Assembly (NCBI GenBank): GCA_030068145.1
Contig: JAPJBO010001050.1
Coordinates: 1-64,000, forward strand
DNA length: 64,000 nt
From: Diplonema papillatum
Taxonomy: Eukaryota > Euglenozoa > Diplonemea > Diplonemida > Diplonemidae
Reading direction: 5' to 3'
Positions 12,538-58,790 of this stretch are shown piece by piece. Within the stretch, counting starts at the first letter, position 1, and each line of letters begins with the position of its first letter. Below the pieces are notes generated by a model. It worked only from the letters and a program-made list of their open reading frames with translations, ran no database searches and was not told where the DNA came from. A program made the translations under genes and the position numbers.

Positions 12538-14660
<2,123 letters not shown>

Positions 14661-26574: not shown

Positions 26575-26912
26575 TCCAGGCATAGTTCACTATCTTTCGG
26601 GTCCCAAGAAGTGTACTTAACCTCAAGTCCGTTTCCAGTAAATCAAGATCGGGCTGTGTTGCATCCTCAAGGATTGGCATATCTCCCTTTCAGTGCGGCT
26701 TGTGAGCTTGACACCCTAAGCCTCGCACACGTGTTACACCTCTCGTGTCACTGCACAAAGTCAGACTAGAGGCAAACTCAACAGGGTCTTCTTTCCCCGC
26801 TGACAGTTTCAAGTCCGTTCCCTTGACTGCTGTTTCGCCAGATAGTAGGTAGGGACAGAAGGAATCTTATTGGTCCATTCATGCGCGTCTTTAATTAGAA
26901 GACGAGGCATTC

Positions 26913-26954
<42 letters not shown>

Positions 26955-26960
26955 TGCTTG
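26575..26960 (-). pseudogene. minus-strand copy of the unknown coding repeats seen at 6.5-7.1 and 13.4-13.6 kb
   Basis: The minus strand carries peptides parallel to those at 6863-7010 (TRKIVNYAWIGRSR). Adjacent sequence at 26795-26955 is the reverse complement of 13380-13580. Segments that are separate elsewhere are therefore joined here in one unit, implying a larger parent element. Stops interrupt all frames. Confidence 0.4.
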
Positions 26961-27099
26961 ACCTGATCTCTCAGCGTTGACATTCAGGGCACTGGGCAGA
27001 AGTCTCCACTCGCCACCGCTGTAGACTCCTTGGTCCGTGTTTCAAGACGGGTAGTAGAAGACACACCAGGTTGGGGGGTGTACGAACAAGAAGGAGACT

Positions 27100-44520: not shown

Positions 44521-45172
44521 AAGAACAAGGTGCACACAACACCCGCGGTGCAAAAAAGAGTGAAGAGGCACTGGTCCCTCAGGGTTTCATACCCAACCTG
44601 CAGGGAGTCTTACACTCCCTGCACTTTTCCCGCCTGGGGGTTTTCTGTTTTTTTTACATAAGCGGCAGCTTGAAAGGAAATGCTCGACGATGCTGCCCGA
44701 CAAAGAACAGAAGGGATCCCAAGTGCTGCAACTACTAAACCACGTGTTGAACGGACGTGAGGTCATGCGGGTCTACCCCCTACACGACAAATCACACAAA
44801 CACAACAGGTCAAAATCCTGAGTGAGAAACAACACACGGTGGTGAAGAACAAATCAGATTGTGTTTGTCTTGTATGTGCCCCCCCCCAGAACCGAGAAAG
44901 AACAAAAAAGAAGAATACTACGCACCAAACCCACCACCCTCCCCAACCCGGGCTTCCTTTTTACCCCTGCAAACCCGTGAATAGGTGCTACGGGAGTATC
45001 TGGCAACCGCTGCTTAACACCAACGATTTAAAAGCTACAGTTTCTGTACTTTATTGGCTGCTCACGCGGCCGGTAAAGTGCGCCCGGAATTCATCCAGGA
45101 CAAACACCCTCCATAACACAACAGCGGTACCCATCCGCGAAAAGAACGCGGGCTACCCGTACCTCCGTCAAA
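44521..45172 (+). other. presumed LINE 5' UTR / flank
   Basis: No gene. Bases 44998-45065 (GGCAACCGCTGCTTAAC and, further on, CTCACGCGGCCGG) faintly resemble the LINE 3' tails (GGCAGCCGCTGCTTAACC, CACGTGGGCGG). The full-length LINE may thus abut an older tail. The 5' end of the element was not located. Confidence 0.35.
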
Positions 45173-47032
45173 ATGGACAGGATTAACGCCCTGATCCAGG
45201 AAGCGCGCGGGATGGCGGAACGCGCCAACCGCGACCAGCTGGATGCCGTTTTCGGCATCCTCGACGTCGCCACGACGCTGCTCCGGCGTCAGATCGAGGC
45301 GAACAGCGGGGAGCCGGCGCAACAACGGCCGCCACTGCAGCAACAGCAGCAACCGAAGCAGCAGCAGCAGCAACCGAGGCAGCAGCAGCAGCCGAAGCAG
45401 CAGCGGCAGCAACCGAAGCAGCAGCAACCGCAGCAGCAACCGCAACCGCAACAGCAGCAGCAACAGCAACAGCAAACGCAGCAGCGCCGCCCGCAGGAGC
45501 AGCAACAACCGCAACCGCAACAGCAACAGCAACAGCAAACGCAGCAGCGCCGCCCGCAGGAGCAGCAACAACCACAACAGCGGCCCCGGCAGGGGTACGC
45601 GCCCACCTGGGCAGAAGTGACCAGGCGGCCCCCGCCACCCGGTAAAATCGACGCCGCCGACTGGGACGCGCCGGTACTCCCCTCCCCCGACTTCGAAGCT
45701 GTCGAAGCTGGCCTCTGGGTCGCCCCGAGCGCCGCCGCAGCCGAAGAAGCGAAGGGTCCCGCAGCAGATGCGGTGGACGTCGCAGAGCGCGACGGGAAGC
45801 GGGTGCGCCTCGGCGTGCTGTGCCGGGAGGCCTTCGACGACGCACGCCGGGGCCCAGTGCTGCTGGAAGGCGGGCGGGTACAGGATATGTACCTGTGGGC
45901 GGGCGGCGGGCCGGTATGCCAGCGGGGCCAGGTGAAGGTCCAGAAGATGCCCGTCAGCGCGGTGAAGCCGAACGCCGCGACGACGGTACTGGCCTTCGTC
46001 GTGGCCAGGAAGCACGCCTCGCCGGAGACCTGGGAGTGCGTCGAGAGGGACCCGCGCACGGCCCTGACTCGCCTGTGCCGGAGGGCTGTCAAGACGGCCC
46101 TGAAGACGGAGGTCCGCGTCCCCGACGACGCCATGTGGGGCGTGTCGTCGCAGCAGGGGAGGCGCGAGCTGGTCGTGCGGGTGCCCCGCGCGCAGGCCGA
46201 AGCGATCCTGGCCAGCTCCGGCCGGGACGGCGGATTCTGGCGGTCGACGGAGAAGGCCTGCCGGGACGCCATGCCGGTGGTCGCCCTGCAAAAGGGGGTC
46301 ACGAGGGCGGTCGCGCTGGCGGTAGCTGAGCGGGCAGGCGCGGCGGCAGCCGGTCTCGTGCTCACGGGCAGCCGCCTCCTCGTGCGCGCACGCAGCGGCG
46401 CTGTGCTGGAGGAGGTGCGTGCGGCGGCCGCCGAACACGCTGCTGCCCCCCTCGAGTCGAAGCCGCGCTTCCTCGTGGTGGGTGCGACGCCGCGGGAGCA
46501 CGAGGCGGACGTCGAGTACGTCCTGCGGGAGGCCGGCTGGCAGGTCGACGTCGCCACGTCGTTCCTGCGAAGTGGGGCCCGGGTTTGCGTGGTGACGTCG
46601 GCGGCCGACCCTCCCTTCAGGGTGCTGCAGCGGGAGGGGGCACCCGACCTCCGGGTAAACCCGTACGACGGAGGTGAGCTGCCGAGGGAGCGGCGCAGGC
46701 GGCTCGCTGCCGCCCCCAGCGGGAAGCGGCGGATGCGGCTGCCGGCGGCGGAGGTGGACGAGCTACCGCAGCCGGCGGCCCCGCCAGCGGACGCGGCCGG
46801 ACAGAAGAAGAGGAAGACGCCGGAGCCGGCAGCGGACGGGCCGGAACCCGCTGGGGACGATGTCCCAATGGACGGTGCAGAGGCGGGCGGGCACGTCCAC
46901 GCCTTCGGGAGCCCGGCGAAGGCCACCGCCGGTTTCTCCTGCGCCCTATGCGGGAAGAAGAAGGCGAAGGGCCAGATCCGCACGACATGCGAGGGCTGCA
47001 ACGTCGGCGCGTGCAAGGCGTGTGCGGGTTGA
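45173..47032 (+). CDS. LINE ORF1, Gag-like RNA-binding protein (619 aa)
   Basis: The ATG at 45173 follows CGTCAAA. Residues 1-45 are helical (DQLDAVFGILDVATTLLRRQ), then a long Gln/Pro-rich region (about 48-140) built from CAG/CAA codons. Residues ~200-480 include two segments that could be RRM-like folds (VKVQKMPVSAV; PRFLVVGATPREHEADVEYV). The C-terminus has a basic patch (KKRKTPEP) and a Cys cluster (CALCGKKK, CEGCNVGACKAC) suited to a zinc-binding module. By position it is the element's RNP protein. It ends TGA at 47030-47032 with CTG following, and the frame beyond is ORF2. Confidence 0.72.
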   Translation: MDRINALIQEARGMAERANRDQLDAVFGILDVATTLLRRQIEANSGEPAQQRPPLQQQQQPKQQQQQPRQQQQPKQQRQQPKQQQPQQQPQPQQQQQQQQQTQQRRPQEQQQPQPQQQQQQQTQQRRPQEQQQPQQRPRQGYAPTWAEVTRRPPPPGKIDAADWDAPVLPSPDFEAVEAGLWVAPSAAAAEEAKGPAADAVDVAERDGKRVRLGVLCREAFDDARRGPVLLEGGRVQDMYLWAGGGPVCQRGQVKVQKMPVSAVKPNAATTVLAFVVARKHASPETWECVERDPRTALTRLCRRAVKTALKTEVRVPDDAMWGVSSQQGRRELVVRVPRAQAEAILASSGRDGGFWRSTEKACRDAMPVVALQKGVTRAVALAVAERAGAAAAGLVLTGSRLLVRARSGAVLEEVRAAAAEHAAAPLESKPRFLVVGATPREHEADVEYVLREAGWQVDVATSFLRSGARVCVVTSAADPPFRVLQREGAPDLRVNPYDGGELPRERRRRLAAAPSGKRRMRLPAAEVDELPQPAAPPADAAGQKKRKTPEPAADGPEPAGDDVPMDGAEAGGHVHAFGSPAKATAGFSCALCGKKKAKGQIRTTCEGCNVGACKACAG

Positions 47033-50000
47033 CTGCCACCGCGACCCGTCCCCGGCGCCAGTTGTGGCCCCGCCAGGCCGGTGCAGGCCGCCCAGCGCGT
47101 GAGTCCCAGCACGCAGTTCGACGATGGAGCAGGCGAAGGTGGTGGCGATCCCTCTTCTTCTTCTTCTTCTTTTTGCCCCCCTCTCTCCCACAATGCGCCA
47201 GGCCTCATTAGCCCGGGAAATTTACCCGCAGCGCACAAACAATCCCCCCACAAAGGCCAGCGTGCCTGCGGGGGGGGCCCTGTCAGGGTGGAGGGAGCAA
47301 TCCCCGGACTAAGCTTCCAGACGATCCCTCGGGATCTTCTGGACAGACTGAGCCGAGTACCCGAGCTTGGGCCGAAAGCCACTTGGAGGAGGCTGGGGGG
47401 AGAACAAAGCAGAGAGACCCAGCAGTGGGGACACGCCTACCGACAGGGCGGACCCCCGGTCAGACTGGAACGGGGTATCCCCGAGGGGCCCCTGAAAGAA
47501 GCGGCGGATCTCATACGTGACCGTCTCGGGTGGGAACCGGACCAGTTGCTGGCCAACTGGTACCGGAGGGGAGTGGGGATCAACCCCCACAAAGACCAGA
47601 GAGAACTGGGTCCGAGGGTAGCGACCATATCGCTCTTGAGCGACACGGTCATGGAGTGGGAGAGGGGGAGCCGGAGAGTGAGAACCCCCCTGCCGGTCGG
47701 CACACTGTGCCACATGGAAGGCGAGGCCAGGAGCCTGTGGACACACGGGATTCGTCCCGATGATGTCGCACGCGACCGGGTCTCGCTCACCTACAGGGCC
47801 GTGCGCGAGGCCGCCTCCCAACGTTTGCAAGGCCGGGACACCCCGCAAGAAACTCCCCCCATGCCCCCCCCGCCCCGCCCTCAGGCGTCCTCCCCACCCC
47901 CCCAGCAACAGTTCAGCCCCGCGCCACGTACTGACTTGTGTAATCGCCAAAGAACTCTTATATCTATTAAGGAAACTACTAGACAGCAGCTGTTAAGCGC
48001 TGGAGACATCGAACAGAACCCGGGCCCCGGCCGCACGGAGATGAAGTTCGCGACGTTGAACGTAACTAGCTTACTTCAATATCTCCCAGCGGCCGACGCG
48101 GTGGAAGCGGATCTTCTCTGCTGCCAGGAGGTGACACTCCTTCCGTGCAAACGGGCGCAGGCGGAGGAATACCTGCGGAAATGGTGCTGCCACTGGGGCC
48201 TGCCGCCTCCCGGAAGACTCTGTAGAAACTCCGGTAGTCGCTCGACGGTGAACGCCGCGAACGGGGGGCTCTCCACTCTAGTACTGAGACCGATACCTGC
48301 GTACGATACGATGACGGCGCTCTCGCACGCAGCAATACGGTCCCCGGACCGAGTGAGCCATACGGTAGTAGCAACAGGGGCCGGCAACACGTTCGTGCAC
48401 GTGTTCAATGTCTACTGCCCTTCCGGAAACGGGAGGGCGGAGAGCGAGGAGCGTGAGGACATGCTGGAGAAGATCCTCTTCGCAGCGGCAGATAGCCTCG
48501 GTGACGTCCCCATAATGGTGATGGGTGACCTGAACACGGAAGAAGACCGGTCCCCTGTGCTGCGGAAGGCACTAAGGAACGGATGGTCCGACGCAGCGGA
48601 ACTGCACCATGCGCGTACCGGTGACACACCGCCACCACCGACCTTTACCAGCGCCCGGACGACAGGCACGAGGATCGACCGCATACTCCTCAACCGAATA
48701 ACGACGGGAGCTTTCCGTCAATGCGTCACCACCGCGGTGAACGTACCGGGACACCGGCTCGTGACAATGACCCTGGACATTGCGGCGCTGCGCCAAATCG
48801 TGTGGCGATTTAAAGTACCGCGGGAAATCCCTACCGAGGGGGGACCCAAGTGGGGCCTCTCGGACACAGAAGCTAACAGGGAAGCCGTACAGAGACTGAC
48901 CAACTCCGATTTCGCAGAACGGCTGGCAGCACAGCGAGTGGAAGAGGCCTGGCTCGAGTGGTCACGAGTCAGTGAGCAGTACTTGCAGGATGCCTTCGGA
49001 ATCCCTGCGGAAGAAAGGGGAAGGAGTACCGGCCGGGGGATAAAGACGTCGCCTAAGAGAGTCTGTATCACGGCAAGCACTGCGAGCGACGGGTCGGGGG
49101 CGGCGAACAGCAGACAGCTACGGCTCCGGAAGGCCATCCACAGGATGGAACGCATCTGCAGCTACCTTGCGCAGCGACGCGGGCCGGAGGCAGTTCCGCA
49201 TGAAGTATCCCGTTGCTGGCAGAACAGCAGACGGCTGGCACAGGCGTGCATGAAAGGTGGCCAAGGGACAGAAGGATTCCCGGATCATGAGGAGGCGAAG
49301 CAGCTTCTCACGGCATTGCGGGAAGAGACGAGTAGGCTCGGAAGGGAAGGATCGGCGGCCAGGTTTACGAAGTACCGAGACAAGCTGAACGAGAGGGCCG
49401 ATGCGAGCAGACGATGTCTGACAACCATCTGCGCCGGACGCGCTGAGCCGTCGGGGGTGTTGCGAACGGGGGCGGGAGTGACTGCAAATGTTGACGAGAT
49501 GGACGAGGCGCTGAACACTGCGTGGGACCCTATCCTGCGTAAGTACAAGGACGGGCCAGAGCCGGAGTACGAGCCGTTTCGGGATCGGTTCCAGGATCAC
49601 ATCGGCCCACACTTGATGGAAGCCGGAACAATCACGGGGGAGGAGCTGCGAATTCTGCTGAGGAAGAAGCCGAAGAAAAGCGCGTCAGGGGTGGATGGCT
49701 GGCGCATGGCTGAACTGCGGGAGTTGCCGCTCCCCCTGCTGAATGCACTTGCAGACGTCATGAACCTGGTCGAAGCGACTGGGGACTGGCCGGCAAGCAT
49801 GACAACTGCGCTGGTGTCGATGGTGCCGAAAGATGAGAGCCAAGACCCGCTGCACACGAGGCCGATAACCGTCACGTCCGCCGTGTACCGCTTGTGGGCC
49901 TGCCGCAGGCTTGCGGACATTGTCCTGTGGCAGGAGGGGTGGATCGAAGAAGGACAGAAAGGCTTTCGGCCGGGCCACCGGATCGAGGACGTCTTGATGG

Positions 50001-53000
50001 AGATAGGGCTCGAGGTGGAGGACGCCTTGCTGGACGGAGAGCCGCTCTACGGAGTGGCGCTGGACTTCCGGAAGTGTTTCGACATGGTCCCGCGAGAGGT
50101 AGTGCTACGCCTGGCTGAGGACTTAGGACTGCACGGTCGGGTTCTCAAGCCGCTGAGGGCGATTTACAGTCTGCTCGCAAGACGCTTCAAGTTGCCGCTA
50201 GGGGTGGGCAGGGAGTTTAGTGTGACCAACGGTATCCTTCAAGGGTGCCCTGTGTCCGTCATACTCATCAATGCCCTGCTGTCGGTAGTGATGAAAGCGG
50301 TCAAAAAAGAAGCTGAGGGTGTGAGTCCTAAGTCGTACGCGGATGATGCCACACTACTGTCCAGGCTGTCGGAGGCCGCACTGCAAAAGGGAGTCGACAT
50401 TGTTGACGAGTTCTGCACACTCACCGGAATGCAGCTAAACCTCGAGAAGACCATCGCATTCTCGACGAGGCAGAGGCACCAGTCGACGCTCAGACTCCGA
50501 AGCGGAAATGCGCTGCTGCGATTTAGCAAGTCCGTCACGTGTCTGGGGGCCCTAGTCTCAACGGCGAAGAACAGAAAGGAGAGGTCCGACTCTAAGAGGG
50601 TAGAGAGGGCGGCGGCCCTAGCGGAGGGCCTCCGCCACGCGCCATTCCGGTACGAAAAGCGGGTCCGTATTGTGCAGTCGAATGTGTTGCCGGCAGCGCT
50701 ATCGGGCTGCTCCTTCGCGCCGGTGTCAAAGGTGGCGATGAAGCGGTTGACGACGTCGGTGATGGGTCTGATCTGGGGTGGAGCAAACCCGAAGCGCGCG
50801 AGAGAAATGGTCCTGAACTTCCAGGAGAAGGGCCACCTGACGGACCCCGGTACGTGTTTAGCGTACCGGGTGACGACGGCGTTCTACGCGGCGTGCGAGA
50901 GGCTGCCGCGACTGCTACCTCTGATGGAGAGTATCCGGGGGCGGTACGCCGAGGGGGACCAACCCCTCGGCCCAGTCGGGCTGGCGATGAGGAGCATGGA
51001 GGAGTGTGGACACATATGGGAGCCTGGGCCCCTATCTCGCACGCTACGACGGAATGGTGCAGTGTTCGACCCGCTGGCCTCGTCGCCCTCGAAGAGGGGG
51101 CACGAAGTGAGGGCGGACCTGAGAACGAGGACGTGGGCCCGACTGATGGCGAGAAGGCCAGGATATCAGGGGCTGGAAAGAGCCGACTTGGAGCGCACGA
51201 ATGCGTTCTGGAAGACGAGGGAATGTTCCGCGCACACGGCGAAGCTAATTCGAGTTGCGATTGCGGGGGGTGTGAACACGGCGGAGTTCACGTCGCGGAT
51301 GAGGCAGGCTGGAGCTGAGCCGCAGGCGCCCAGCTGCAAGCACTGTGGGAGCGGCGTGACGGAGAACGAACAGCATATCTACTGGGACTGCGACGCATAC
51401 TCACACATTCGCCGGCGGGAAGCACACGCCGGGCTGATGGCGGCCAACCGAACCGAGTGGCCCCGATGCACGCTGGAACATGGTGTGGTTGTACCGGGGA
51501 ACGCCCACTTATCGAGGCGGCTCCAGGAGATGATGGCTGAAATCCTTGCGGAACGGGCAGGGCTCGAAGCACGTGGCTGGGTAGCCAGGAACCCCACGAC
51601 CCCCTGGTCGAGAGCGGATGCGATGCCTGCCGAGAAATTTGACCACCCCTTTGCGCGGATTGCCCCGGCATGGACGTGGGAGCGAAACAAGACCTGGGGA
51701 CTACCGACGTTTTATGCGTTGGTAGCGTGGCTGTCTGACATGCAGTGGACCGAGAGCGGGCAGGCGTCAATGCTAGAGCTTGCGATCGACTTTGAACTCT
51801 TCTCGGGCCTCAGCATGCCGCTGCACGGGAATGCGCCGAAGGGGGTGAGAGAACGGGGAAACGTCCTGCGCTGCATGATGAGCGCGTTGGACAAGCTGGC
51901 GGCACAGCAAGGGCTGGGAAGCTGCATGAGAGGGGAGAGGGTGTGCCCGACGACGTCGCTGTCGTTCATGGGCATCTCGGGGATATCGGGTGTACGGCCC
52001 AGGCCACGCTTTCGCGAGGCACACACGGGGACGATACTTGAGGAACAAGTGAAAGGAAGCGATGTAGGGACGCAGTGCCCGGCGTACCCTGACTGGACGA
52101 TCGGGAGAGCGGCGAGGTGGGCCCTGCCTGCCCCACCACAACTGCACCCAGACCCCGTGCATATGCCGGGTGTCGATATAGAGAAGGCACTCGTCACGTG
52201 CGCGACCCATCACAAAGGGAAGTGTGAGGCGTGCAGAGCACTCGTCCGAAGGGACGTGCCCACGGTAGAGATGTGCTGCCGGCACCATCACCACGCGAAC
52301 GATGGGCAGCCGATCGCGGTGTGCACAGAGCACAGCACGACGAAGTGCGGCGAGTGCAAGACGGCGGCGGCGTGTTGCCGCAGCGGGCATCATGCCTGCC
52401 GCACGCATGGCAGAGGAACCTGCCAAGAGTGCAAGAGGCTCCCTACGCTGACGCAGAGGCGACCGGCGGCATGTTGCCGCCGCGGCCACCACCAGTCCAA
52501 CGAACCGAACGTCCCGTCAACCCCCGGACGCAACAAGAAGAAGAGGCCCTCCTCACCCACCCAGGTGGGCGTACAACGGGGAACGCCAGTTGGAAAGCGA
52601 GCGGCGCAAGCGCCGCCCGCGGCAACGAAAAAGGAGACGGCGACGACCGGACGGGCGACCAAGAGGCCGCCACCAACGCCAGGAACCAGCGAACGACCAG
52701 CGCTGAAGAAAAGGGTGCTAGGCACCCCGAAGGAAGGCCCGATCGCCGGCCGCAAGCGGAAGAAGACGAAGGCGACCACCCCCGACTCAGGGGTGCATCG
52801 AAGGAAGAAGAAGGTACCGAGGGCAAGCAGCTCTCAGAAACGACCGGGGACCACGGGCACACCAATGCCCTCGAAAGTGAAAAACGGACACACGTGCCCG
52901 CCCTCGTACTCGCCGACTCAGTCTCTGGAATCGCAAGAAAGCCAAACCCCGCTAGCTCCACAAATGCTCGACCTTGACGACGCAATGGCAGGTGACGACG

Positions 53001-53011
53001 TCATCCGATAA
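47033..53011 (+). CDS. LINE ORF2: AlkB-like dioxygenase - 2A - AP endonuclease - reverse transcriptase
   Basis: Residues are counted from GTG at 47081. AlkB domain ~80-245: NWYRRGVGINPHKD gives N159/Y161 and HxD (H170, D172); distal His is H222; RVSLTYR (R233, R239) fits the family's RxNLTFR. 2A motif 309-316 (DIEQNPGP). AP endonuclease ~320-560: TLNVTSL, QEV, GDLNTE, TRIDRILLN and PGHRLV give the catalytic set. RT ~870-1150: DFRKCFD, GILQGCP and YADD (1086-1089). CCHC finger C1419-C1437; Cys/His-rich module ~1707-1820 (CCRHHHH); basic tail to 1976. No in-frame AUG precedes H170 (the first is Met just after it), so the AlkB part needs UGA readthrough, frameshifting or non-AUG initiation. After 2A skipping, the endonuclease-RT would start at Pro316. 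Confidence 0.85.
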   Translation: MPPRPVPGASCGPARPVQAAQRVSPSTQFDDGAGEGGGDPSSSSSSFCPPLSHNAPGLISPGNLPAAHKQSPHKGQRACGGGPVRVEGAIPGLSFQTIPRDLLDRLSRVPELGPKATWRRLGGEQSRETQQWGHAYRQGGPPVRLERGIPEGPLKEAADLIRDRLGWEPDQLLANWYRRGVGINPHKDQRELGPRVATISLLSDTVMEWERGSRRVRTPLPVGTLCHMEGEARSLWTHGIRPDDVARDRVSLTYRAVREAASQRLQGRDTPQETPPMPPPPRPQASSPPPQQQFSPAPRTDLCNRQRTLISIKETTRQQLLSAGDIEQNPGPGRTEMKFATLNVTSLLQYLPAADAVEADLLCCQEVTLLPCKRAQAEEYLRKWCCHWGLPPPGRLCRNSGSRSTVNAANGGLSTLVLRPIPAYDTMTALSHAAIRSPDRVSHTVVATGAGNTFVHVFNVYCPSGNGRAESEEREDMLEKILFAAADSLGDVPIMVMGDLNTEEDRSPVLRKALRNGWSDAAELHHARTGDTPPPPTFTSARTTGTRIDRILLNRITTGAFRQCVTTAVNVPGHRLVTMTLDIAALRQIVWRFKVPREIPTEGGPKWGLSDTEANREAVQRLTNSDFAERLAAQRVEEAWLEWSRVSEQYLQDAFGIPAEERGRSTGRGIKTSPKRVCITASTASDGSGAANSRQLRLRKAIHRMERICSYLAQRRGPEAVPHEVSRCWQNSRRLAQACMKGGQGTEGFPDHEEAKQLLTALREETSRLGREGSAARFTKYRDKLNERADASRRCLTTICAGRAEPSGVLRTGAGVTANVDEMDEALNTAWDPILRKYKDGPEPEYEPFRDRFQDHIGPHLMEAGTITGEELRILLRKKPKKSASGVDGWRMAELRELPLPLLNALADVMNLVEATGDWPASMTTALVSMVPKDESQDPLHTRPITVTSAVYRLWACRRLADIVLWQEGWIEEGQKGFRPGHRIEDVLMEIGLEVEDALLDGEPLYGVALDFRKCFDMVPREVVLRLAEDLGLHGRVLKPLRAIYSLLARRFKLPLGVGREFSVTNGILQGCPVSVILINALLSVVMKAVKKEAEGVSPKSYADDATLLSRLSEAALQKGVDIVDEFCTLTGMQLNLEKTIAFSTRQRHQSTLRLRSGNALLRFSKSVTCLGALVSTAKNRKERSDSKRVERAAALAEGLRHAPFRYEKRVRIVQSNVLPAALSGCSFAPVSKVAMKRLTTSVMGLIWGGANPKRAREMVLNFQEKGHLTDPGTCLAYRVTTAFYAACERLPRLLPLMESIRGRYAEGDQPLGPVGLAMRSMEECGHIWEPGPLSRTLRRNGAVFDPLASSPSKRGHEVRADLRTRTWARLMARRPGYQGLERADLERTNAFWKTRECSAHTAKLIRVAIAGGVNTAEFTSRMRQAGAEPQAPSCKHCGSGVTENEQHIYWDCDAYSHIRRREAHAGLMAANRTEWPRCTLEHGVVVPGNAHLSRRLQEMMAEILAERAGLEARGWVARNPTTPWSRADAMPAEKFDHPFARIAPAWTWERNKTWGLPTFYALVAWLSDMQWTESGQASMLELAIDFELFSGLSMPLHGNAPKGVRERGNVLRCMMSALDKLAAQQGLGSCMRGERVCPTTSLSFMGISGISGVRPRPRFREAHTGTILEEQVKGSDVGTQCPAYPDWTIGRAARWALPAPPQLHPDPVHMPGVDIEKALVTCATHHKGKCEACRALVRRDVPTVEMCCRHHHHANDGQPIAVCTEHSTTKCGECKTAAACCRSGHHACRTHGRGTCQECKRLPTLTQRRPAACCRRGHHQSNEPNVPSTPGRNKKKRPSSPTQVGVQRGTPVGKRAAQAPPAATKKETATTGRATKRPPPTPGTSERPALKKRVLGTPKEGPIAGRKRKKTKATTPDSGVHRRKKKVPRASSSQKRPGTTGTPMPSKVKNGHTCPPSYSPTQSLESQESQTPLAPQMLDLDDAMAGDDVIR
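48005..48028 (+). other. 2A ribosome-skipping motif DIEQNPGP
   Basis: Codons 48005-48028 encode DIEQNPGP, preceded by QQLLSAG. This is the canonical 2A consensus D(V/I)ExNPGP, with skipping expected between Gly (48023-48025) and Pro (48026-48028). It sits exactly in the linker between the AlkB domain and the start of the endonuclease (MKFATLNV, 48041). 2A peptides are established in some trypanosome and animal non-LTR elements. Confidence 0.88.
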
Positions 53012-53100
53012 CCTGACTTTCAAGGCAGTGCATGCTAATCCATGTGGTTCATGTACTTAAAAGAACTCAATGCTTAACAGTGCTCACGTGGGCGGTGTCT
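53012..53100 (+). other. LINE 3' UTR/tail
   Basis: Starts at TAACCTGACTTTCAAGGCAG and contains TGCATGCTAATCCATGTGG, TACTTAAAAGAACTCAATGC and CACGTGGGCGG. It is conserved at 55019-55107, 54112-54198 (partial) and 1970-2082 (diverged). This is a candidate recognition site for the element's RT. Confidence 0.7.
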
Positions 53101-54111: not shown

Positions 54112-54198
54112 ATAGGTGTCACGGCAAGTTTTGGCAGCCGCTGCTTAACCAGCAGTGCATGCTAATCCATGTGGTTCATGTCCTTAAAAGAACTCAAT
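54112..54198 (+). mobile_element. LINE 3' tail fragment
   Basis: Begins GTGTCACGGCAAG as at 1970 and continues through TGCATGCTAATCCATGTGG and AACTCAATGCTTAACC. It stops at CACGTG, where the truncated LINE copy begins. The conserved continuation GGGCGG is missing. Confidence 0.75.
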
Positions 54199-55107
54199 GC
54201 TTAACCACGTGCGCGACCCATCACAAAGGGAAGTGTGAGGCGTGCAGAGCACTCGTCCGAAGGGACGCTCCCACGGTAGAGATGTGCTGCCGGCACCATC
54301 ACCACGCGGACGATGGGCAGCCGATCGCGGTGTGCTCAGAGCACAGCACGACGAAGTGCGGCGAGTGCAAGACGGCGGCGGCGTGTTGCCGCAGCGGGCA
54401 TCATGCCTGCCGCACGCATGGTAGAGGAACCTGCCAAGAGTGCAAAAGGCTCCCTACGCTGACGCAGAGGCGACCGGCGGCATGTTGCAGCCGCGGCCAC
54501 CACCAGTCCAACAAGCCGAACGTCCAGTCAACCCCCGGACGCAACAAGAAGAAGAGGCCCTCCTCACCCACCCAGGTGGGCGTACAACGGGAACGCCAGT
54601 AGGAAAGCGAGCGGCGCAAGCGCCGCTCGCGGCAACGAAAAAGGAGACGGCGACGACCGGACGGGCGACCAAGAGGCCGCCACCAACGCCAGGAACCAGC
54701 GAACGACCAGCGCTGAAGAAGAGGGTGCTCGGCACCCCGAAGGAAGGCCCGATCGCCGGCCGCAAGCGGAAGAAGACGAAGCCGATCACACCCGACTCAG
54801 GGGTGCATCGAAGGAAGAAGAAGGAACCGAGGGCAAGCAGCTCTCAGAAACGACCGGGGACCACGGGCACACCAATGCCCTCGAAAGTGGAAAACGGGCA
54901 CTCCTGCCCGCCCTCGTACTCGCCGACTCAGTCTTTGGAATCGCAAGAAAGCCAAACCCCGCTAGCTCCACAAATGCTCGACCTTGACGACGCAATGGCA
55001 GGTGACGACGTCATCCGATAACCTGACTTTCAAGGCAGTGCATGTTAATCCGTGTGGTTCATGTACTTAAAAGAACTCAATCCTTAACCAAATTTGACGT
55101 GGGCGGC
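54199..55107 (+). mobile_element. 5'-truncated LINE copy (last ~270 codons of ORF2 plus 3' UTR)
   Basis: From CACGTGCGCGACCC this copy matches 52195-53100 at high identity, with a few substitutions and one small indel region near 54590. The Cys/His module and basic tail remain an open frame to TAA at 55019. It is joined to the preceding tail at a shared CACGTG. The AlkB, endonuclease and RT domains are absent. Confidence 0.88.
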
Positions 55108-57504: not shown

Positions 57505-57905
57505 CTGCGTGGACCACTTCCAGTACACGGTGCTGGTCCTTGGGGACGGGGCTGTCGGGAAGATGATCCTGATCAACTGGTTCTGCAACGGTTTGTTCAA
57601 GGAGTCCTACAAGCAGACCATCGGCCTTGACTTCTTCGTGAAGCGCGTCTTGCTCCCCGGCAACGTGCACGACGACCCTGCAGATCTGGGACATCCGCAG
57701 GCAGAGTCGGAAGCTGGGAATGTACGGCAGCCACTGCATCGTGCTGCAAGTCCGGGACTGCCACGCTGCGTTCCGACTCTTGCAGACGGCCGCTATGTGT
57801 TTCACGAGCACGTCCGCCTTCTCTTTACGGAAAAGACACATTTGAACCTGTGCACTTACACTCCGGACTTCGAAGCTGTACGGCTGGGCCTTCTTTATTC
57901 CTGAT
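57505..57905 (+). pseudogene. Rab28-like GTPase pseudogene
   Basis: YTVLVLGDGAVGK followed by KQTIGLDFFVKRVLLPGN matches the P-loop and switch I region of Rab28-type small GTPases. The P-loop Ser/Thr that binds Mg is Met here (GKM). After VLLPGNVH the open frame loses homology, but a shifted frame at ~57680 reads LQIWDI, the next conserved strand. A frameshift has therefore occurred. The WDxxGQ switch II Gly/Gln and the later G4 and G5 motifs are missing. It starts within 20 bp of the preceding ORF's stop. It is a dead partial copy. Confidence 0.6.
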
Positions 57906-58790
57906 GTCTGCACGTCCGCATGAAGGATACCCAAGCAAGCTGACCTGCAGGCCGATCCCGCAGACGCGTCTGCGTTTTCAAAATCTGCAGAATGAAGTAA
58001 CCCCGAGCTCACGCCCATTTAAAGTTTGAGAATAGGTCGAGGAAGCGATTTCCCCAATGCCTCCAATCATTCGCTTTACCTGGCGTAACTCCTGTTTTGG
58101 TTCTAGCTATCCTGAGGGAAACTTCGGAGTGAACCAGCTACTACAGACGTCTTGGGGGGGGGGGACTTCCGAAATAGCGCAAGTCATGTCGAATAAGCAA
58201 ACCCGCTTTTTTTTGCCGGGAATACTCGAAGGAGGCCGCATGTCCGCGAATCTTTCAGAATCTCGCGAGTAGTCGTGCTCATCATCACGCAGCATGCCGG
58301 TGACGACTCCCCGCGTGCACCGCGAGGAAGCCCCGAATCTTCGAGGAGCTGTGCTGTGGCCCGCAGGAAACACACGGGGGGATTCGCGGTTAGTGCCAGC
58401 CTAGTGCCGCAGCGTTGCGGTCGATTGATTCAGGTGGCTTCCGGCAGACTGTGAACCGGCAACGCAGCCCGGGGTCGATGAGCTGCCCTGTTTCGTCGAC
58501 CAGCAACGCATAATATTTCCTTTGGGTTGATCCTTGTCATCTCACACGAAGATTCCGGGAGAAAAAGAGGTGGGGCGATCCAGAGCGGGAAATCTTGGGA
58601 GGAGGGGAAAACTTGATCCAACGGGTAGGCAGAAGACTTCTTTTCAGACGTGCTGCATACCAACGTCAAGTCTTCTTCGTAGAAAGAGAGAGGAAGTGCA
58701 AGGCGTCCCAAAGTTAGGTACAATGACCCGATGCGGGACTTGAACCCTTCCGGGCTATCCTCTTTCACTGCAGGGGATATCACATGATAA
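57906..58790. other. no recognisable gene
   Basis: Contains a G-run at 58154-58163 and, inverted, the block CGTCAAGTCTTCTTC (58662-58676) related to the repeated GAAGACTTGATGC motif. Nothing else supported. Confidence 0.4.

Follow-up and report, generated by a model that had tools for sequence, protein, structure and literature searches.

An AlkB-type dioxygenase domain between ORF1 and a 2A-like motif in an APE-type LINE of Diplonema papillatum

What would a retrotransposon do with a dioxygenase of the AlkB family, and how would it express one? The question is raised by a 64,000-nucleotide stretch, here called the window (positions 1 to 64,000 of contig JAPJBO010001050.1, our contig C1050), from the 271-Mb genome of the marine diplonemid euglenozoan Diplonema papillatum, which is the genome searched throughout. 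An initial annotation of the window described a long interspersed nuclear element (LINE) whose second open reading frame (ORF2) begins with an AlkB-type dioxygenase ahead of an endonuclease and a reverse transcriptase (RT). We find a LINE of the apurinic/apyrimidinic endonuclease (APE) type at 45019-53023, inserted within a repeat. The architecture is genuine and belongs to an abundant family that was active recently and is under selection, in which the AlkB domain lies between a conserved TGA-CT junction and a 2A motif. The junction, the 2A motif, the spliced leader (SL) at the 5' end, the genome-wide copies and the swapping of modules are new relative to that annotation.

Anatomy of the element and identity of the AlkB domain

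The element and its flanks are laid out as follows.

44980-45018 (+): 5' half of the target repeat, ending TGGCAACCGCTGCTTAAC, placed by alignment of the joined flanks with an empty repeat copy
45019-45056 (+): host SL, 38 of 39 nt with the first base missing, forming the element's 5' end (exact match)
45057-45172 (+): 5' untranslated region (UTR), between the SL and the ORF1 ATG
45173-47032 (+): ORF1, 619 aa, with a Q-rich N-terminal part and a C-terminal Cys-rich motif; stop TGA at 47030-47032, then CT
47033-47269 (+): spacer past the TGA, open and in frame, under weak constraint (ratio of nonsynonymous to synonymous rates, dN/dS, 0.49-0.80 in three subfamily pairs)
47270-47842 (+): AlkB-type 2-oxoglutarate (2OG)-Fe(II) dioxygenase domain, Pfam core 47501-47797
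47963-48028 (+): 2A-like ribosome-skipping sequence ending D-I-E-Q-N-P-G-P, the motif itself at 48005-48028
48056-48697 (+): APE-type endonuclease (PF03372)
49850-50464 (+): RT (PF00078)
52253-53011 (+): C-terminal tail, Cys/His-rich and basic, within the open frame; ORF2 stop TAA
53012-53023 (+): 3' end of the element, lacking poly(A) on inspection of the sequence
53024-53100 (+): 3' half of the target repeat (joined-flank alignment)
54206-55033 (+): another copy of the element, truncated at its 5' end; identity 96.3% across 902 bp, flank included

The ORF2 frame is open from 47033 to 53011 and encodes 1992 aa, in which the endonuclease (PF03372, E 1.4e-8) and the RT (PF00078, E 1.1e-18) both exceed their Pfam cut-offs. 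Because Exo_endo_phos and RT share one frame, the element is classed as an APE-type LINE, and the nearest solved structure to its RT by sequence is LINE-1 ORF2p. No Pfam match to RNase H was listed for the whole frame at E values up to 10, in a search whose filters drop most weak matches. The ORF1 product is 99.5% identical in a protein (P0009) from a different locus.

The AlkB assignment had been made from a fingerprint of residues in a given order and spacing, and all of them are present where they were placed. In the numbering of P0001 (that of the initial annotation starts at 47081) they are N-W-Y, H186-K-D, H238 and R249-x5-R255, which supply the iron triad HxD...H and the Rx5R motif. A profile match to the AlkB family, proposed at the time as a check, was obtained with the first 322 aa (PF13532, E 6.2e-13), at 49.8 bits against a cut-off of 31.2. 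A profile built from three AlkB rows identified ALKBH8 (3thp, E 2.9e-11) as the best-scoring solved structure, followed by ALKBH6 and Schizosaccharomyces pombe P8A3.02c. Seven catalytic or 2OG-binding positions were checked and are identical in the window and in the related retroelement protein P0003. With a codon usage model trained on the endonuclease-RT region, AlkB scored as coding (+0.16), and the spacer (-0.28) and the linker (-0.24) as non-coding. Three proteins matched the AlkB region of the window, all from D. papillatum, and 54 matched the endonuclease-RT region, 30 of them from D. papillatum. No relatives of the AlkB domain were found in prokaryotic genome contigs (one AlkB scan) or in phages (one tblastn), and one scan of viral contigs with AlkB and one with the endonuclease-RT returned no relatives of either.

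Genomic copies and selection on the AlkB domain

To place the window copy in its family, PF13532 was searched genome-wide; 150 of 250 candidates were scored, all 150 above the cut-off, and the counts that follow are lower bounds. Open frames of 1960-2050 aa contain at least 66 of the 150 hits, on many contigs, and internal stops interrupt 2 of the 150, so that the domain first seen in one copy is kept elsewhere in the genome. The top-scoring hits are probably host AlkB genes. We fetched 20 copies, selected for long frames, which represent three further subfamilies, A (L009-L016), B (L017-L022) and C (L023-L028). The AlkB motifs and the YADD motif are kept in all 21 copies (the window and the 20 fetched). 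Five pairs compared within subfamilies are 98.7-99.97% identical over ORF2, with L009-L014 at the lower end, and this near-identity indicates that the family was active recently. 5'-Truncated copies also exist, one in the window (54206-55033) and, among those fetched, L012 and L025 with a shortened ORF1.

The expectation that dN/dS over the AlkB segment should fall below 1 between genomic copies was borne out for three subfamily pairs by the Nei-Gojobori method, with values of 0.31 (window-L023), 0.21 (window-L009) and 0.22 (L023-L009). The same pairs gave 0.13-0.17 for the endonuclease, 0.04-0.07 for the RT, 0.49-0.80 for the spacer and 0.52-0.71 for the linker. When the proteins of the window and P0003 were compared alone, purifying selection appeared weak: 226 of 4000 neutral simulations kept the seven residues without a stop, and in mean similarity the changes did not stand out, 988 of 4000 simulations scoring as high. 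This protein test is superseded by the DNA comparisons.

The ORF1-AlkB junction and the 2A motif

The initial annotation was right that AlkB, endonuclease and RT follow one another in a single frame. ORF2 does not, however, start with an ATG; it continues the frame of ORF1 past a TGA, and the first in-frame ATG after that stop in the window copy is at 47651, inside AlkB. In all 21 copies ORF1 and ORF2 are in the same frame and separated by one stop, TGA followed by CT, whereas the terminal stop of ORF2 is TAA-CC in 20 of 21, the exception (L018) ending early at TGA-CG. The junction peptides of subfamilies A, B and C/D do not align with one another, yet TGA-CT is kept; in subfamily B a 15-nt difference lies directly ahead of the stop, and both the frame and TGA-CT are retained. 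A variant of the element with an OTU-like domain, described below, has an in-frame TGA-CTG at the junction in 6 of 6 loci. Assuming that A, B, C/D and the OTU variant are independent, and ignoring the frame, the rough chance of three further TGA-CT junctions is 9e-6. UGA-CU is a leaky stop context, and programmed readthrough yielding an ORF1-AlkB product is likely, judging from the sequence of these junctions.

Between AlkB and the endonuclease-RT lies DIEQNPGP, present also in 20 of 20 fetched copies, which fits the 2A motif D(V/I)ExNPGP; 2A sequences are known in non-LTR (long terminal repeat) retrotransposons (PMC4981915). The proposed fusion of AlkB to the endonuclease-RT thus holds for the reading frame, but the 2A motif between them suggests that the mature endonuclease-RT is probably separate from AlkB, and that AlkB is probably carried on the ORF1 protein. 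In the related retroelement protein P0020, residues 298-389 contain two NPGP-type motifs (GDVHPNPGP), between ORF1 and the endonuclease.

The 5' end and the insertion site

The 38 nt at the 5' end of the window copy correspond to an SL sequence listed under Euglenozoa, no species being given there (PMC3795323). In the D. papillatum genome a tandem SL array with a period of ~1240 bp is found on contig C1335 and probably represents the SL RNA genes. Eleven of the 21 copies have SL at the 5' end, 38 nt of it in four and a shorter piece, cut off within the leader, in seven (four of these seven recognized only with 2-3 mismatches over 19 nt), and none was found in the other 10. Genome-wide, the 38-nt SL is joined to a C/D-type 5' UTR at 52 places, compared with 0 for a reversed control. 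The joining of SL to the element's 5' UTR indicates that the elements were copied from trans-spliced RNA. In 25 of the 52 ends the 38-nt SL is preceded by A (binomial p 0.0003 against an assumed chance of 1/4). Four copies had suggested a block to reverse transcription at SL nucleotide 1, a candidate weakened by the presence of A there in 25 of 52 ends.

When the flanks of the element at 45019-53023 were joined, they formed a near-seamless copy of a repeat with an empty counterpart at ~1964-2077 (alignment score 128; the best of 500 shuffles scored 38), showing insertion without target duplication. The truncated copy at 54206-55033 is flanked by a ~55-bp duplication of the target repeat (54151-54205 and 55034-55089) and has the same type of 3' junction. 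Both insertions in the window therefore share the kind of target repeat and the 3' junction. Poly(A) is absent, both 3' ends finishing CTGACTTTCAA and then passing into the target repeat. Segments of this repeat occupy ~1964-2077, 44980-45018 with 53024-53100, and 54114-54205 of the window, and the repeat had no Rfam match at the gathering threshold. At that threshold the window contains only fragments of large subunit (LSU) rRNA, at 14414-14551 (+), 26874-27001 (-) and 57843-58121 (-), in agreement with the 28S pieces described as scattered across the D. papillatum genome in PMC10161547.

Exchange of modules and AlkB domains in other mobile elements

The modules ahead of the 2A motif are swappable, some otherwise nearly identical elements having an OTU-like domain where the window copy has AlkB. 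Protein P0005 has an OTU-like domain, then 2A, then an endonuclease 97% identical to that of the window, and a tree built from endonucleases places the AlkB form and the OTU form as sisters (support 100/97). Over 106 aa the OTU parts of P0005 and P0033 share 83% identity; the P0033 endonuclease is 34% identical. In a genome search with P0005, in which 97 of 1749 candidates were scored, at least 13 of 98 matches extend uninterrupted by stops over residues 1-410 or further, and four of the 13 lie in 1856-aa frames. Among the OTU matches seen, that of P0026 alone exceeds the Pfam cut-off; a weak match to Josephin in P0043 likewise falls short of its cut-off. ORF1 has been exchanged too: L017 (B) and L023 (C) are 96-100% identical per 250-bp step from 100 bp into ORF2, whereas their ORF1 regions share 42-50% of nucleotides.

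Related AlkB domains occur in other classes of mobile element. An R2-like retroelement (L035, contig C641) encodes, in one frame of at least 2189 aa, an AlkB domain, a sub-threshold OTU match and an RT nearest R2 among solved structures. Its AlkB is 79-80% identical to that of the window, and that of P0003 73-76%; these AlkBs are related although the L035/P0003 retroelement differs from the window LINE in that the R2-like element gives no APE match and has no 2A. Two further loci are Helitron-like. L040 (contig C166, 17200-26900, minus strand) has one frame of 2986 aa with an N-terminal AlkB, Helitron_like_N, a PIF1 helicase and a C-terminal USP-type UCH domain, and L041 (contig C1735, 9500-15900) has an N-terminal AlkB with Helitron_like_N in the fetched stretch. 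Their AlkBs are 45% and 42% identical, respectively, to that of the window and 67% identical to each other. In a tree of 14 AlkB rows the LINEs, L035, P0003 and L008 form a group distinct from the remaining seven D. papillatum AlkB hits sampled (99/99); branches are long and the detail is unsure, and the Helitron kind is represented by L008, L040 and L041 not being rows. The gene model P0004 (residues 1-540) joins AlkB to a region that resembles a tyrosine recombinase by eye, with no support from PDB or Pfam.

Discussion

The account that we favor, with somewhat more confidence than doubt, is that this SL-capped APE-LINE uses a leaky stop to deliver AlkB on its ORF1 protein, where the enzyme demethylates the element's nucleic acid. 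One SL-capped mRNA would encode ORF1, the leaky UGA-CU, the AlkB-type dioxygenase, the 2A skip site and the endonuclease-RT. The majority of ribosomes would terminate after ORF1, and the few that read through would make ORF1-AlkB, separate it at 2A and continue to the endonuclease-RT, giving ORF1, ORF1-AlkB and endonuclease-RT as products. AlkB would in this way enter the element's own ribonucleoprotein in proportion to RT, the ORF1 protein being assumed, as in other LINEs, to be the partner that binds RNA. There it could oxidatively strip methyl groups from bases of the element RNA and/or cDNA, which would either clear lesions or marks that stop reverse transcription or erase a host mark aimed at mobile elements. 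Nucleic-acid demethylation serving the element would be the most likely function of the domain.

Several observations weigh against parts of this account. AlphaFold models of the domain were of low confidence, with a mean pLDDT (predicted local distance difference test) of 34.7 from one sequence and 49.5 from four rows; strands are predicted in the latter, which is nevertheless too weak to call the fold. Entry into ORF2 might occur by routes other than readthrough, given that L014-L016 have an in-frame ATG at ORF2 residue 32, ahead of AlkB, and that an ATG lying within a few codons past the stop would allow reinitiation in the OTU variant. A polypyrimidine tract at ~47150-47200 could permit separate trans-splicing, an option weakened by the retention of that region in the RNA that was itself retrotransposed. 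The spacer, which readthrough would translate, is not strongly coding-like by codon usage or dN/dS. The fetched copies, having been selected for long frames, are an unfair sample of intactness, and the pair L017-L023 gave an AlkB dN/dS of 2.0, on 7 changes only in a pair too close to judge. Finally, AlkBs carried by Helitrons argue against a role on an RNA template alone; Helitrons are not known to have an RNA intermediate.

What the demethylation might be for is where the explanations diverge. AlkB may counter silencing by erasing a host methyl mark, be it N6-methyladenosine (m6A) on transposon mRNA or N6-methyladenine (6mA) or another mark on DNA, with the OTU-like and USP domains countering a ubiquitin arm of the same defense. 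We regard this as quite possible, a little short of an even chance: a single AlkB clade spans three element classes (LINE, R2-like and Helitron), AlkB and OTU-like domains alternate ahead of the same 2A-endonuclease-RT, and the protein encoded by an orchid gypsy element acts in vitro as an m6A-type demethylase (PMC9289625), but the best-scoring solved relatives are ALKBH8 and ALKBH6 rather than ALKBH5 or FTO, and the OTU matches are below the cut-off in D. papillatum P0003, P0005 and L035, with none listed for P0033. AlkB might instead remove 1-methyladenosine, 3-methylcytidine or cap-4-like methylation of the SL so that RT reaches the 5' end of its template. Element 5' ends do lie within SL in 11 of 21 copies and at 52 C/D-type ends of 38 nt genome-wide, and the kinetoplastid cap 4 contains N6,N6-dimethyl-A1 and 3-methyl-U4 (PMC11417388). 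We nonetheless consider such template repair or cap clearing rather unlikely: 27 of the 52 ends lack the first SL nucleotide and thus give no clear sign that a block at A1 is lifted, the SL here has C at position 4, and related AlkBs are found in Helitrons.

Two explanations dispense with the enzyme altogether. AlkB-type domains bind nucleic acid, and the domain could be a catalytically dead or purely structural binding module; this is improbable given that the seven checked positions are the same in the window and P0003 and that none of the 21 copies has lost the motifs. We reject a chance fusion or an assembly artefact of one copy, for which there is next to no probability left: the gene models of near relatives (P0006, P0007, P0009) do begin after AlkB or omit it, but at least 66 of 150 scored hits lie in full-length-sized frames on many contigs, with 2A and junction conserved.

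That related AlkBs recur within one genome, in a LINE, an R2-like element and Helitrons alike, suggests a common pressure exerted by the host. We tentatively suggest, with more doubt than belief, that these three unrelated kinds of element share a transferable counter-defense toolkit of the mobile-element AlkB clade and deubiquitinase-type domains (OTU-like and USP). In the LINE the toolkit lies between the leaky UGA-CU and 2A and can therefore be exchanged without touching the endonuclease-RT. Such a toolkit, if real, would imply an undiscovered host defense in which transposon nucleic acid is tagged through base methylation and ubiquitin is also employed. If AlkB is active, LINEs carry their own nucleic-acid demethylase, and mutating a single histidine of the element would directly test whether base methylation restrains retrotransposons. 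The UGA-CU/2A cassette is an unusual modular layout for LINE gene expression.

Among known systems, some plant RNA viruses have an AlkB domain in the polyprotein of a replicating element, with an unrelated replicase. ALKBH8 and ALKBH6 belong to the same sequence family and have the same catalytic residues, but they are host proteins rather than part of a mobile-element polyprotein. No AlkB-carrying LINE, R2-like element or Helitron was found among the titles and abstract openings listed by searches of open-access literature. The D. papillatum genome has been described with ~2500 retroelement-type gene models and a dozen AlkB-type genes, the two being left unconnected in the available part of that report (PMC10161547); the dozen may include transposon genes, which calls for caution in annotation. 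L1Tc/INGI elements (PMC4748587, PMC12278014) are likewise euglenozoan APE-type LINEs, and L1Tc has an in-frame 2A. INGI has a Pr77 promoter, RNase H and a poly(A) tail, and AlkB is unmentioned in the available part of the account of it (PMC12278014), whereas the D. papillatum LINE begins with SL, encodes a separate ORF1 and AlkB, gives no RNase H match and lacks poly(A) at the ends seen. L1Tc of Trypanosoma cruzi gives unspliced transcripts (PMC4748587), in contrast to the trans-spliced RNA copied here. The nearest precedent is the Ty3/gypsy retrotransposon of Phalaenopsis, which encodes an AlkB-family protein with demethylase activity in vitro (PMC9289625). That element is an LTR retrotransposon of a plant host with AlkB in an additional ORF, whereas in D. 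papillatum an APE-LINE carries AlkB between ORF1 and the 2A-endonuclease-RT.

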